From: Gemmatimonadota bacterium
GTDB lineage: Bacteria; Gemmatimonadota; Gemmatimonadetes; Gemmatimonadales; Gemmatimonadaceae
Length of the DNA stretch: 38,904 nucleotides
NCBI GenBank assembly: GCA_028876525.1
Contig: JAGWRI010000022.1
Span: forward strand, 1 to 38,904
Direction of reading: 5' to 3'
The first letter of the stretch is position 1. Every line of letters starts with the position of its first letter. Below the pieces are notes generated by a model that made no database searches, was not told the origin of the DNA, and worked only from the letters and a program-made list of their open reading frames with translations. The translations under genes and the position numbers were made by a program. This document shows, one piece after another, positions 20,755 to 25,396 of the stretch.

Positions 20755-21816
20755 CTACCGGTACTCCTCCATCAGCTCCTGCAGGGCCGCGTTGCCGGGG
20801 CACAGCTCCTCGTACGGCAGCTCCACCAATGGCCGGGCCACGGTCTTGTTGAGCGTGTGCAGATCCTGGCTTCGCTCGTTGATGTAGATGAGCCCGGTCG
20901 GGATCTCGCCGCGGCGCTGGTGGTCGCGCAGGTGCCGGTACGCCACGTCGCGGTCGCGCGGATTGTAGTCCTCGGGCGTCTTGCGGAACCGCACGACGCT
21001 GCCGTCGTGCATCGCCACCGACATCGCGTCGCCGGCGCCGGCCTCGGCGGGGGCCGTGATCTCCTTGCGAAGGGGCACGAAGTCCACCGGCGCCAGCTCC
21101 TGGTAGTGCTCGCGCGTGTAGCGGTAACTCTTCGTGGACCCGACGTGGTCGTTGAAGCTCACGCAGGGCGAGATGATGTCGATGAACCCGAACCCGTTGT
21201 GCAGGAGCCCGGCCTTGAGCATCGGCACGAGCTGGGCCTTGTCGCCCGAGAACCCGCGGGCCACGAACGTCGCCCCCAGGCTGAGCGCGAGGAGCACCGG
21301 ATCGATGGGGGGGAACTCGTTCTCGTCGCCCTTCTTGGACGTGGAGCCGATGTCGGCCGACGCCGAGAACTGCCCTTTGGTGAGGCCGTACACGCCGTTG
21401 TTTTCCAGCACGTACAGCATGTTCACGTTGCGGCGAATGGCGTGCACGAACTGGCCGAGTCCGATGGAAAGCGAGTCGCCGTCGCCCGAAATGCCGATGT
21501 ACACGAGGTCGCGGTTGGCCGCGTTGGCGCCCGTGGTGAGCGCCGGCATCCGCCCGTGCACGCCGTTGAAGCCGTGCGACTGCTTCATGAAGTACGCGGT
21601 GGTCTTGGACGAGCACCCGATGCCGCTCATCTTGGCGGCGCGGTGCGGGGGGACGTCCAGCTCCCAGAACGCCTGGACGATGGCCGCCGTGATCGAGTCG
21701 TGGCCGCACCCCGCGCAGAGCGTGGACATCGCGCCCTCGTAGTCGCGCCGCGTGAGGCCGAGCGCGTTCCGGGGCAGGGACGGATGCTTGACGGGCGGCT
21801 TGACGATGGACGTCAT
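20755..21816 (-). CDS. korB: 2-oxoacid:acceptor oxidoreductase, beta subunit (TPP-binding)
   Basis: MSTLCAGCGHDSITAAIVQAFWEL...SGIGCSSKTTAYFM...ISGDGDSLSIGLGQFVHAIRRNVNMLYVLENNGVYGLTKGQFS. Confidence 0.9.
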   Translation of the reverse strand: MTSIVKPPVKHPSLPRNALGLTRRDYEGAMSTLCAGCGHDSITAAIVQAFWELDVPPHRAAKMSGIGCSSKTTAYFMKQSHGFNGVHGRMPALTTGANAANRDLVYIGISGDGDSLSIGLGQFVHAIRRNVNMLYVLENNGVYGLTKGQFSASADIGSTSKKGDENEFPPIDPVLLALSLGATFVARGFSGDKAQLVPMLKAGLLHNGFGFIDIISPCVSFNDHVGSTKSYRYTREHYQELAPVDFVPLRKEITAPAEAGAGDAMSVAMHDGSVVRFRKTPEDYNPRDRDVAYRHLRDHQRRGEIPTGLIYINERSQDLHTLNKTVARPLVELPYEELCPGNAALQELMEEYR

Positions 21817-23612
21817 ACGGCGGCTCCCTCCAGGTGAGCCGTGACGGCGCCGACCACGCGCCCCGCGGTGAGCGGGAGGCCGCCGTAGTCGAGCACCGGA
21901 ATCATGTGGTCGCGCGGCACGCCGGTCTCGATGGCGAGCATGGCGCGGAGCTGCGCGTCGCGATTCTGCTCCACGACGAACACGAACTCATGCTCGTTGA
22001 GGAAATCCGCGACTTCCGCCGCGAACGGGAATCCGCGAATGCGCATGTAGTCGGCCCCGATGCCCTGGGCGCGGAGCAGGTCCAACGCCTCGCGCAGCGC
22101 CCCGTGGGTCCCGCCCAGCGCCACGAGCCCCACCGACGCGCCCTCCTGGCGGAAGACCTCCGGCGCCGGCACCGCCGACGCCGCGCCCTGGATCTTCCGC
22201 GCGATGCGGTCCACGAGCTCCAGGTACGCGTCGGAATCCTCGGTGTAGGCCGCGTTCTTGTCGTGCCCCGACCCGCGGGTGAAATACGCGCCCTTGGGTC
22301 CCACGCCGGGCAGCGTGCGATAGGGGATGCCGTCGCCGTCCACGTCGGTGTAGCGCGCGAACTTCTTGACGTTCTCCAGATCGGCGGCGCTCAGCACCTT
22401 GCCGCGGTCCGGCACGTACGCATCGTCCCAGGAAAATCGGGGCACCATCCAGTCGTTCATGCCGATGTCGAGGTCGGACACCACGAACACCGGCGTCTGG
22501 TACCGCTCGGCGAGGTCGAACGCGTCGCGCGCCATCGTGAAACACTCGGCCGGACTGCAGGGATACAGCGCGATGTGCTTGGTGTCGCCGTGCGAGGCGT
22601 AGGCAATCGCCATCAGGTCGCCCTGCTGCGTGCGCGTCGGCATGCCGGTGGACGGGCCGGTGCGCTGGACGTCGAAGAACACGCAGGGCACCTCGCCGTA
22701 GTAGGCGAGGCCGATGAACTCCTCCATGAGCGAGATGCCGGGGCCGGCGGTCGACGTGAACGCCCGCGCGCCCGCCCAGCCGGCGCCGATCACCATCCCG
22801 GCGGCGGCCAGCTCGTCCTCGGCCTGGATCATCGCGTACCGGCGCTGGCCCGAGTCGGGGTCGCGGCGGTAGCGCTCGCCGAACGTCCGATAGGCCTCCA
22901 TCAGCGACGTCGACGGAGTGATCGGATACCAGGCGCCCACCGTCGCGCCCGCGAACACGCATCCCAGCGCCGCCGCCGTGTTGCCGTCGATGACGATTGA
23001 ATCCCGGGTCGCGTCCATCCGCTCGAGGCGGATGGGCAGGGGACAGTCGAAGTGCTTCATCGCATAATCGTGCCCGAGCTGGATGGCGCGGAAGTTGGCG
23101 TCCAGCAGCGCCTTCTTCTTCGAGAACTTCTCGCGCAGCATCTCGCCCACGACGTCCATGTCGATGTCGAACAGGGCCGCGAGCGTGCCCGTGTACACGA
23201 TGTTGCGGAGCAGCGTGCGCGGCCGGTCGCCCTCGAAATTCTCCACGCAGAGCTGGCCGAACGGCACTCCGAGGTACTGCACGTCGTCGCGGATCAGCGA
23301 CCGATCCAGCGGCCAGCTCGAGTCGTACACGAGGTACCCGCCCGCCCGCACCGCGGCCACGTCGCGCTCGTACGTGCCGGTGTTGAGCGCCACCACGAGG
23401 TCGATCTGCTCCGGGCGCGCCATGTACCCGTCCCGGTTGACCCGGATTTCGTACCAGGTGGGCAGCCCCTGAATGTTGGACGGGAAGATGTTCTTGCCCG
23501 ACACGGGGATGCCCATCCGGAAGATGGCCTGCATCAGCAGTCCATTGGCACTGGCCGAGCCGGTGCCGTTGACGGTGGCCATCTTGAACGCGAAGTCGTT
23601 CACCCCACTCAT
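21813..23612 (-). CDS. korA: 2-oxoacid:acceptor oxidoreductase, fused gamma-alpha subunit
   Basis: N-terminal gamma domain (NGTGSASANGLLMQAIFRMGIPVSGKNIFPSNIQGLPTWYEIRV), C-terminal alpha domain (WYPITPSTSLMEAYRTF...TSTAGPGISLMEEFIGLAYYGEVPCVFFDVQRTGPSTGMPTRTQQGDL); ATGA overlaps on both sides. Confidence 0.9.
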   Translation of the reverse strand: MSGVNDFAFKMATVNGTGSASANGLLMQAIFRMGIPVSGKNIFPSNIQGLPTWYEIRVNRDGYMARPEQIDLVVALNTGTYERDVAAVRAGGYLVYDSSWPLDRSLIRDDVQYLGVPFGQLCVENFEGDRPRTLLRNIVYTGTLAALFDIDMDVVGEMLREKFSKKKALLDANFRAIQLGHDYAMKHFDCPLPIRLERMDATRDSIVIDGNTAAALGCVFAGATVGAWYPITPSTSLMEAYRTFGERYRRDPDSGQRRYAMIQAEDELAAAGMVIGAGWAGARAFTSTAGPGISLMEEFIGLAYYGEVPCVFFDVQRTGPSTGMPTRTQQGDLMAIAYASHGDTKHIALYPCSPAECFTMARDAFDLAERYQTPVFVVSDLDIGMNDWMVPRFSWDDAYVPDRGKVLSAADLENVKKFARYTDVDGDGIPYRTLPGVGPKGAYFTRGSGHDKNAAYTEDSDAYLELVDRIARKIQGAASAVPAPEVFRQEGASVGLVALGGTHGALREALDLLRAQGIGADYMRIRGFPFAAEVADFLNEHEFVFVVEQNRDAQLRAMLAIETGVPRDHMIPVLDYGGLPLTAGRVVGAVTAHLEGAAV

Positions 23613-25396
23613 ATGGCGTGCTCCAGGCCGCCCGCGACGGCGCGAATCAGGTCGAACTTCTGCATGTCCCACGCCGCGGTGGGGCACCGCTCGGCGCACA
23701 GCCCGCAGTGCAGGCACACGTCCTCGTCCTTGACCATCAGCCGTCCCGTCTGCGGCAGCGCCGCCGACACGTACAGTCCCTGGTCCGGGTTCGCCGCCGG
23801 CGCCGACAGCCGCGCCCGCAGGTCGGCCTCGCCGCGTCCGTCGGGCGCGATCGTGAGGCAGTTCACCGGGCACACGTCCACGCAGGCATCGCACTCGATG
23901 CACAGCGTGCTCGTGAAGTGCGTCTCGATGTCGCAGTTGAGGCACCGCTGCACTTCGGCCGCCGTCTGCTCGGGGGTGAAACCCAGCTCCACCTCCACCG
24001 CCACGTCCGAGAAGCGCTTGACCAGCGCCTCGTGCTCCATCTTGGCGCGCGACGACGGGTTGTAGTCGTTGTGGTAGCTCCAGGCGTGCATGCCCAGCTT
24101 GGCGCTCACCAGGTTCATGCCGTCCGGCGGGCGGTCGGTGACCGGGACGCCCTGGCAGTGGTTGTCGATCGAGATCGCCGCCTGGTGGCCGTGCTCCACC
24201 GCCCAGATGATGTTCTCGGGCCCCCACGCGGCGTCGCCGCCGAAGAACACGCCCGGGCGGGTGCTCATGAAGGTCGTGCGATCCACCACGGGCATGTCCC
24301 ATTTGGGGTCGAACGCGAGCCCGATGTCCCGCTCGATCCACGGGAAGGCGTTGTCCTGCCCGATGGCGAGGATGACCTCGTCGCAGGGAATCACCGTCGT
24401 GCCGATCACCTTGCTCTTCTGCTTCCCGTCCGCTTCGGTCCACTCGAGCTGCTCGAATTCCATGCCCACGAGCTTGCCGCCCTCGATCACGAAGCGCTTC
24501 GGCGCGTGGTTCTCGACGATCTCGATGCCCTCCTCCTCGGCGTCCTCCAGCTCCCACGGCGACGCCTTGAAGTAGGGGCGCGACCGGCGCGCCACGACCT
24601 TCACGTCGGTGCCGCCCAGCCGCTTGGACGTGCGGCAGCAGTCCATGGCCGTGTTGCCCACGCCGATGATCAGCACCCGCGGCGAAATCGTTTCGACGTG
24701 GCCGAAGTGCACCGAGCCCAGCCATTCGATGCCGATGTGGATCTGCGCCTTGGCGTCCCAGCGCCCGGGGATGTCCAGCTCCTTCCCCCTCGGGGCGCCG
24801 CTGCCGACGAACACGGCGTCGTACCCCTCGGCGAGCAGCGCCTTGAGGCTGGTCACCGGCATCTCGTAGCGGATGTCCACGCCCATGTCGAGAATGGCGT
24901 CCACCTCGGCGTCGAGCACCGGCGCGGGCAGGCGGAACGCGGGAATGTTGTAGCGCATGAGGCCGCCGGCCTGCGGCAGCTTCTCGTAGATCACGCACTC
25001 GTACCCGAGGGGCATGAGGTCGTTCGCCACGGTGAGCGACGCCGGACCGGCGCCGACGAGCGCGACGCGCTTTCCATTCTTCTGCGCCGGCGCCTGGGGC
25101 AGCCGGTCGTCGATCTCGTCGCGCAGATCGGCCGCCACGCGCTTCAGCCGGCAGATCGCGACGGGCTTTCCGTCCACGCGGCCGCGCCGGCAGGCGGGTT
25201 CGCAGGGACGGTCGCAGGTGCGGCCGAGGATGCCCGGGAACACGTTCGACATGCGATTGAGCATGTACGAATCCGTGTACCGGCCCTGCGCGATGAGGCG
25301 AATGTATTCGGGAACGTTGGTGTGGGCCGGACAGGCCCACTGGCAGTCGACGACTTTATGGTAGTACTGCGGATTTCGAACGTCCGTTGGATCCAT
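23609..25396 (-). CDS. GltD-like NAD(P)/FAD oxidoreductase with C-terminal 2x[4Fe-4S] ferredoxin domain
   Basis: N-terminal CQWACPAHTNVPEYIRLIAQG...CDRPCEPACRRG; RVALVGAGPASLTVANDL; VLIIGVGNTAMDCCRTSKRLG; C-terminal CIECDACVDVCPVNC and CLHCGLCAERCP. Confidence 0.9.
   Translation of the reverse strand: MDPTDVRNPQYYHKVVDCQWACPAHTNVPEYIRLIAQGRYTDSYMLNRMSNVFPGILGRTCDRPCEPACRRGRVDGKPVAICRLKRVAADLRDEIDDRLPQAPAQKNGKRVALVGAGPASLTVANDLMPLGYECVIYEKLPQAGGLMRYNIPAFRLPAPVLDAEVDAILDMGVDIRYEMPVTSLKALLAEGYDAVFVGSGAPRGKELDIPGRWDAKAQIHIGIEWLGSVHFGHVETISPRVLIIGVGNTAMDCCRTSKRLGGTDVKVVARRSRPYFKASPWELEDAEEEGIEIVENHAPKRFVIEGGKLVGMEFEQLEWTEADGKQKSKVIGTTVIPCDEVILAIGQDNAFPWIERDIGLAFDPKWDMPVVDRTTFMSTRPGVFFGGDAAWGPENIIWAVEHGHQAAISIDNHCQGVPVTDRPPDGMNLVSAKLGMHAWSYHNDYNPSSRAKMEHEALVKRFSDVAVEVELGFTPEQTAAEVQRCLNCDIETHFTSTLCIECDACVDVCPVNCLTIAPDGRGEADLRARLSAPAANPDQGLYVSAALPQTGRLMVKDEDVCLHCGLCAERCPTAAWDMQKFDLIRAVAGGLEHAI

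Follow-up and report, generated by a model that had tools for sequence, protein, structure and literature searches.

An operon of the Azoarcus evansii KorABC type in a Gemmatimonadota genome: a probable three-subunit 2-oxoglutarate:NADP+ oxidoreductase

Which enzyme is served by a flavoprotein that resembles the small subunit of glutamate synthase when its gene directly precedes korA and korB? The question is raised by a locus in a window of 38,904 nucleotides, the whole stretch of DNA analyzed here (contig C161 of a 3.25-Mb assembly that is 94% complete). The nearest named relatives by the KorC sequence are Gemmatimonadota, and the genome is Gemmatimonadota-like. Such a locus is easily misread in two ways: korC may be annotated as encoding a glutamate synthase subunit or some nondescript FAD oxidoreductase, and the whole operon may pass for a KorAB that depends on ferredoxin, a frequent marker for reductive carbon fixation. 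An NADP+-linked oxidative reading alters the inference of redox balance and carbon fixation for many environmental genomes, and KorABC would represent a testable NADPH route, whether or not an organism also has 2-oxoglutarate dehydrogenase.

The operon and its closest known counterpart

Three minus-strand open reading frames, joined by ATGA overlaps at both junctions, make up the operon (Table 1), as described previously in a sequence-only reading of this DNA. Its assignment of the second and third genes to a fused gamma-alpha KorA and a KorB was borne out. KorA passes the TIGR03710 model (546.9 bits; cutoff, 482.75) and matches Pfam POR and POR_N, and KorB matches TPP_enzyme_C. Also in agreement with that reading, neither a GltB large subunit nor a separate delta ferredoxin gene was found within the three-gene block. 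The neighbours are the housekeeping genes pheT, zapA, rny and folD, and an aromatic-degradation context was not seen around the operon. The rny gene is divergent and lies upstream of korC.

Table 1. Features of the operon, in window coordinates unless indicated otherwise; masses are calculated.
Feature	Position	Strand	Description
korC-like gene	23609..25396	-	FAD/NADP(H) Fe-S flavoprotein, 595 aa, 65.4 kDa, two C-terminal [4Fe-4S] ferredoxin motifs
korA	21813..23612	-	fused gamma-alpha 2-oxoacid:acceptor oxidoreductase subunit, 599 aa, 65.3 kDa, YPITP motif
korB	20755..21816	-	TPP-binding beta subunit, 353 aa, 38.5 kDa, one [4Fe-4S] set and K71
korC-korA overlap	23609..23612	-	4 bp, ATGA
korA-korB overlap	21813..21816	-	4 bp, ATGA
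First ferredoxin motif, CIECDACVDVCP	23867..23902	-	KorC 499-510
Second ferredoxin motif, CLHCGLCAERCP	23681..23716	-	KorC 561-572
Relocated GltD/NfnB-type Fe-S helix	23918..24031	-	KorC 456-493, with C485-x2-C488
K85 codon of KorC	25142..25144	-	position of the StnC K170 / NfnL E126 cluster ligand
Operon CDS of Aromatoleum aromaticum EbN1 (own coordinates, plasmid 2)	4890-6677, 6674-8542, 8539-9594		

The closest precedent is the 2-oxoglutarate:NADP+ oxidoreductase (KGOR) purified from Azoarcus (Aromatoleum) evansii by Ebenau-Jehle, Boll and Fuchs in 2003 (J Bacteriol 185:6119). Its three subunits reportedly have masses of about 63, 62 and 37 kDa; the enzyme is reported to contain FAD, TPP and Fe-S, to be specific for 2-oxoglutarate, and to reduce NADP+ but not NAD+. 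The reported subunits correspond to those encoded in the window, i.e. a GltD-like Fe-S subunit with FAD and NADP sites, KorA and KorB. Unlike the A. evansii system, the window operon comes from a different phylum and is located amid housekeeping genes. Kinship was measured via the congeneric A. aromaticum EbN1, whose plasmid 2 carries these three genes in one operon; they overlap by the same 4 bp and are 58/55/59% identical to the genes described here. In that strain a gene for a CBS-domain protein lies directly before korC (L052:4389-4853), which was not seen in the window. In PMC10134865 the A. evansii 2-oxoglutarate:NADP+ oxidoreductase is one of the lineages named within the GltD/NfnB family.

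We consider it very likely (probability about 0.85) that the three genes specify the subunits of a 2-oxoglutarate:NADP+ oxidoreductase of the A. evansii type (KorABC) with a non-bifurcating KorC. The idea that the GltD-like protein is the built-in ferredoxin/NAD(P) module of KorAB, as put forward in the sequence-only reading, is supported by gene linkage (see below) and by the purified A. evansii enzyme, and hence is not new. Literature on Gemmatimonas or Gemmatimonadota in combination with a KorABC-type enzyme yielded nothing on point. KorABC turns out to be a known but little-studied kind of enzyme that is common and strictly conserved across many bacterial phyla; added here are its breadth, the strictness of the linkage, the finding that the CxxC helix is relocated, and the prediction of a lysine ligand.

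In the proposed complex, KorA and KorB would bind CoA and TPP and catalyze the oxidative decarboxylation of 2-oxoglutarate to succinyl-CoA. Single electrons would then leave the lone [4Fe-4S] cluster of KorB for the C-terminal ferredoxin domain of KorC, which holds two clusters; from this domain they would reach a distal cluster (C485, C488, C18, C69) and an FAD-proximal cluster (C22, C61, C65 plus K85 and/or C82), and finally pass via FAD to NADP+ as hydride. KorC would be built-in delta subunit and NADP reductase in one. NADP+ is favoured over NAD+ as the putative acceptor by homology: NfnB, StnC, GltD and dihydropyrimidine dehydrogenase (DPD), with which KorC is grouped by fold search and sequence (as it is with NfnC), are all NADP(H) enzymes of the KorC fold.

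The KorAB enzymes of Thauera aromatica, Hydrogenobacter and Magnetococcus likewise have a gamma-alpha fusion in KorA and a TPP/[4Fe-4S] subunit KorB; they reduce soluble ferredoxin, and we know of no GltD-like subunit associated with them. The type present in the window differs from such two-subunit ferredoxin-dependent enzymes by its strictly linked reductase subunit. It is nevertheless conceivable, if somewhat doubtful, that soluble ferredoxin is the main acceptor or donor of the same complex and that KorC docks it or balances the pools of ferredoxin and NADPH, NADP+ being one of two outlets. A supply of ferredoxin in addition to NADPH has reportedly been proposed for the A. evansii enzyme. 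The Nfn-like AadN of R. palustris is thought to replace KorAB in supplying ferredoxin to benzoyl-CoA reductase (PMC9973337). Against a main role of soluble ferredoxin speak the 2[4Fe-4S] ferredoxin domain that KorC itself possesses and the fact that many carriers belong to ordinary soil or aquatic lineages.

Direction, substrate and place in the TCA cycle

The redox potential is near -0.5 V for the couple 2-oxoglutarate/succinyl-CoA and near -0.32 V for NADPH, which makes NADP+-linked oxidation of 2-oxoglutarate by KorABC a downhill reaction and NAD(P)H-driven carboxylation an uphill one. On these general thermodynamic grounds KorABC is unlikely to work as a reductive carboxylase when NAD(P)H is the only electron donor, an option that the sequence-only reading had left.

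With respect to the substrate, KorB contains one set of [4Fe-4S] cysteines (C34, C37, C68, C218) and a lysine, K71, that corresponds to Lys49 of StOFOR1; L145 also matches a StOFOR1 residue shaping 2-oxoacid use. KorA retains the YPITP motif and the carboxylate arginine of StOFOR1. The position of StOFOR1 Asp468 is occupied by serine in KorA, and by leucine in MmOGOR and in Hydrogenobacter KorAB (PMC5020499 for the latter), so that the substrate pocket is not decisive. An enzyme of the same architecture might act on another 2-oxoacid (pyruvate, branched-chain or mixed), which we regard as rather unlikely. The substrate of an OFOR is not safely readable from its sequence, and StOFOR enzymes that have the same Lys49/Leu123 accept pyruvate as well as 2-oxoglutarate (PMC5020499); moreover, sucA is present in 73 of the 78 KorC-carrying genomes of our phylum sample. 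On the other hand, KorB keeps the lysine whose replacement in StOFOR1 (K49I) abolishes 2-oxoglutarate use (PMC5020499), the related purified enzyme bears the name 2-oxoglutarate:NADP+ oxidoreductase in PMC10134865, and one genus has KorABC together with other TCA cycle genes and no detectable sucA.

In this genus (g63; two genomes, G110 and G122, 93% complete) neither sucA nor a second KorB was found, while genes for KorABC, citrate synthase, sucC and one member of the Iso_dh family are present. This suggests that KorABC performs the 2-oxoglutarate step in g63 in place of 2-oxoglutarate dehydrogenase. The genome of the window does contain sucA and, therefore, KorABC is not the sole candidate for 2-oxoglutarate oxidation there. 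It also harbours a second KorAB (G000:C241, L135) whose KorB is 37% identical and whose genes are followed by one for an RnfB-like Fe-S protein; this pair may form a 2-oxoacid oxidoreductase of its own that is linked to ferredoxin or Rnf. The products of sucA and of the second KorAB genes may share the pathway with KorABC in this genome. We tentatively speculate that bacteria of many phyla use KorABC to gain NADPH at the 2-oxoglutarate step of the TCA cycle, that it fully replaces the dehydrogenase in some lineages such as g63, and that the fourth ligand of its proximal [4Fe-4S] cluster can switch between the invariant K85 and the invariant C82.

Domains and predicted cluster ligands of KorC

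KorC comprises the Pfam domains Fer4_20 and Pyr_redox_2 followed by a C-terminal Fer4_7 domain. The two C-terminal [4Fe-4S] motifs noted earlier are present, whereas the Fe-S cysteines of the GltD-type domain, previously described as an N-terminal set, are split: C18, C22, C61, C65, C69 and C82 are N-terminal, and the CxxC pair C485/C488 is on the C-terminal side. The N-terminal Fer4_20 match begins at profile position 31, and the missing first part of the profile, including the CxxC, was found at KorC 456-493. When this segment was moved ahead of the N-terminal domain the Fer4_20 score rose from 60.6 to 79.0 bits and profile positions 6-108 were filled; a shuffled segment used as control gave 59.4 bits. 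Since the equivalent stretch pairs with the protein's own N-terminus in two NfnL structures and the CxxC stretch of StnC-like proteins is collinear with that of KorC, relocation of the CxxC is common to known proteins.

All eight cysteines of the GltD-type domain are invariant in 38 KorC sequences, as are those of the ferredoxin domain (C499, C502, C505, C509, C561, C564, C567, C571) and C513. K85, which aligns with StnC K170 and NfnL E126, is present in 38/38 sequences; C82, where StnC has Ala167, is also invariant. The same applies to two residues of the second nucleotide-binding motif, R270 and K277, which by analogy with the relatives would bind the 2'-phosphate of NADP. The AlphaFold model of KorC (mean pLDDT 72) is good only in the FAD/NAD core and falls below 50 in much of the Fe-S parts; the cluster ligation proposed here was therefore taken from the alignment only.

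KorC resembles Sporomusa StnC (8oh5) and NfnC-type proteins (9bov, 9n5u) in its GltD-like FAD/NADP domain, the CxxC helix following it and the proximal lysine. StnC, however, has a fused NuoG-like domain and the bifurcating StnAB as partner; KorC has a short ferredoxin domain, KorAB as partner and the extra invariant Cys82, and no NuoG domain was detected by Pfam within its 595 residues. With GltD and NfnB it shares the FAD/NADP fold and the Fer4_20 Fe-S domain, but it differs from them by the relocated CxxC helix, the additional ferredoxin domain and the lack of a GltB or NfnA partner, and from NfnB also by the lysine in place of glutamate at the proximal cluster. In NfnB the cluster ligand is a glutamate, and in the non-bifurcating StnC it is K170 (or C114), with K170 being essential (PMC10482914). 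As K85 of KorC matches StnC rather than NfnB, we predict that KorC is a non-bifurcating shuttle. An electron-bifurcating Nfn-type module in which 2-oxoglutarate and NADP(H) are coupled to a third carrier is highly improbable: the NfnB/StnC fold and the invariant R155, the equivalent of R201/R239, would fit it, but the glutamate ligand of NfnB is replaced by an invariant lysine as in StnC, which lost bifurcation, and an NfnA-like partner is absent from the operon.

Linkage of korC with korA and korB

In a sample of 150 genomes of the phylum, orthologs of the GltD-like protein (counted at about 65% identity or more) occur in 78 and KorB orthologs in 74. All 74 genomes with KorB also encode the GltD-like protein, and such a KorB was never seen without it. 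The four genomes with only the GltD-like protein have its gene truncated near a contig end or in pieces, or on a short contig that stops before korB. In 70 of the 72 genomes in which both genes were placeable by simple coordinates, korC and korB are adjacent, i.e. on one contig and one strand and 1.8-2.15 kb apart, which leaves room for korA; in the other two a contig break separates them. Named genomes, when scanned, yielded 80 loci (59-79% identity) in Gemmatimonadota, Acidobacteriota, Actinomycetota, Myxococcota, Planctomycetota, Binatia, and Alpha- and Gammaproteobacteria, and wherever the contig reaches far enough korC is directly followed by korA and korB. Labels of metagenome-assembled genomes may be wrong for single bins; the co-linkage pattern would stand. 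Co-occurrence, adjacency and identical gene order across phyla thus point to KorAB as the partner of the GltD-like protein. The distance matrices of the subunits correlate (r = 0.73-0.86), which, without an unrelated-protein control, is weak evidence that adds little beyond synteny. A natural korC-korA fusion was not seen in the surveyed genomes; short matches, among them the pieces in G075, did not count as fusions. Apparent split or fused KorC genes at two places in the single-contig genome G125 (G125:C1; L049, L050; 1381-aa frame) were rejected as assembly artefacts because the scaffold is joined there across runs of N.

In the genome of the window no GltB was detected with PF04898, and PF01645 gave a single fragment of 39 positions and 22 bits. 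A GltD acting with a distant gltB was dismissed, the genome being without gltB; only 19 of the 78 carriers have this gene. KorC scored below the cutoff of all three GltD models (TIGR01316, TIGR01317, TIGR01318). That KorC truly serves as the small subunit of a glutamate synthase and is located beside korAB by chance is scarcely credible, since its Pfam and fold resemblance to GltD is outweighed by the absence of gltB from this genome (about 6% of the assembly is missing) and from 59 of the 78 carriers, by the unmet GltD cutoffs and the extra C-terminal ferredoxin domain, and by korAB linkage that is strict across phyla. The warning that 'glutamate synthase small subunit' would be a misleading annotation was well founded.

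A related arrangement exists on a plasmid of Phenylobacterium zucineum (L054, 4935-10194), where the gene for a PRK12771 NAD(P)-binding protein with KorC-like domain order (32% identity to KorC) lies directly upstream of nifJ, which encodes a one-chain pyruvate oxidoreductase. The PRK12771-type flavoprotein and NifJ may thus form a pyruvate system that is linked to NAD(P) in parallel fashion. KorABC itself is encoded by a korC-korA-korB operon (59/53/59% identity) on a megaplasmid of Variovorax paradoxus (L053); the operon can therefore sit on large extrachromosomal replicons.
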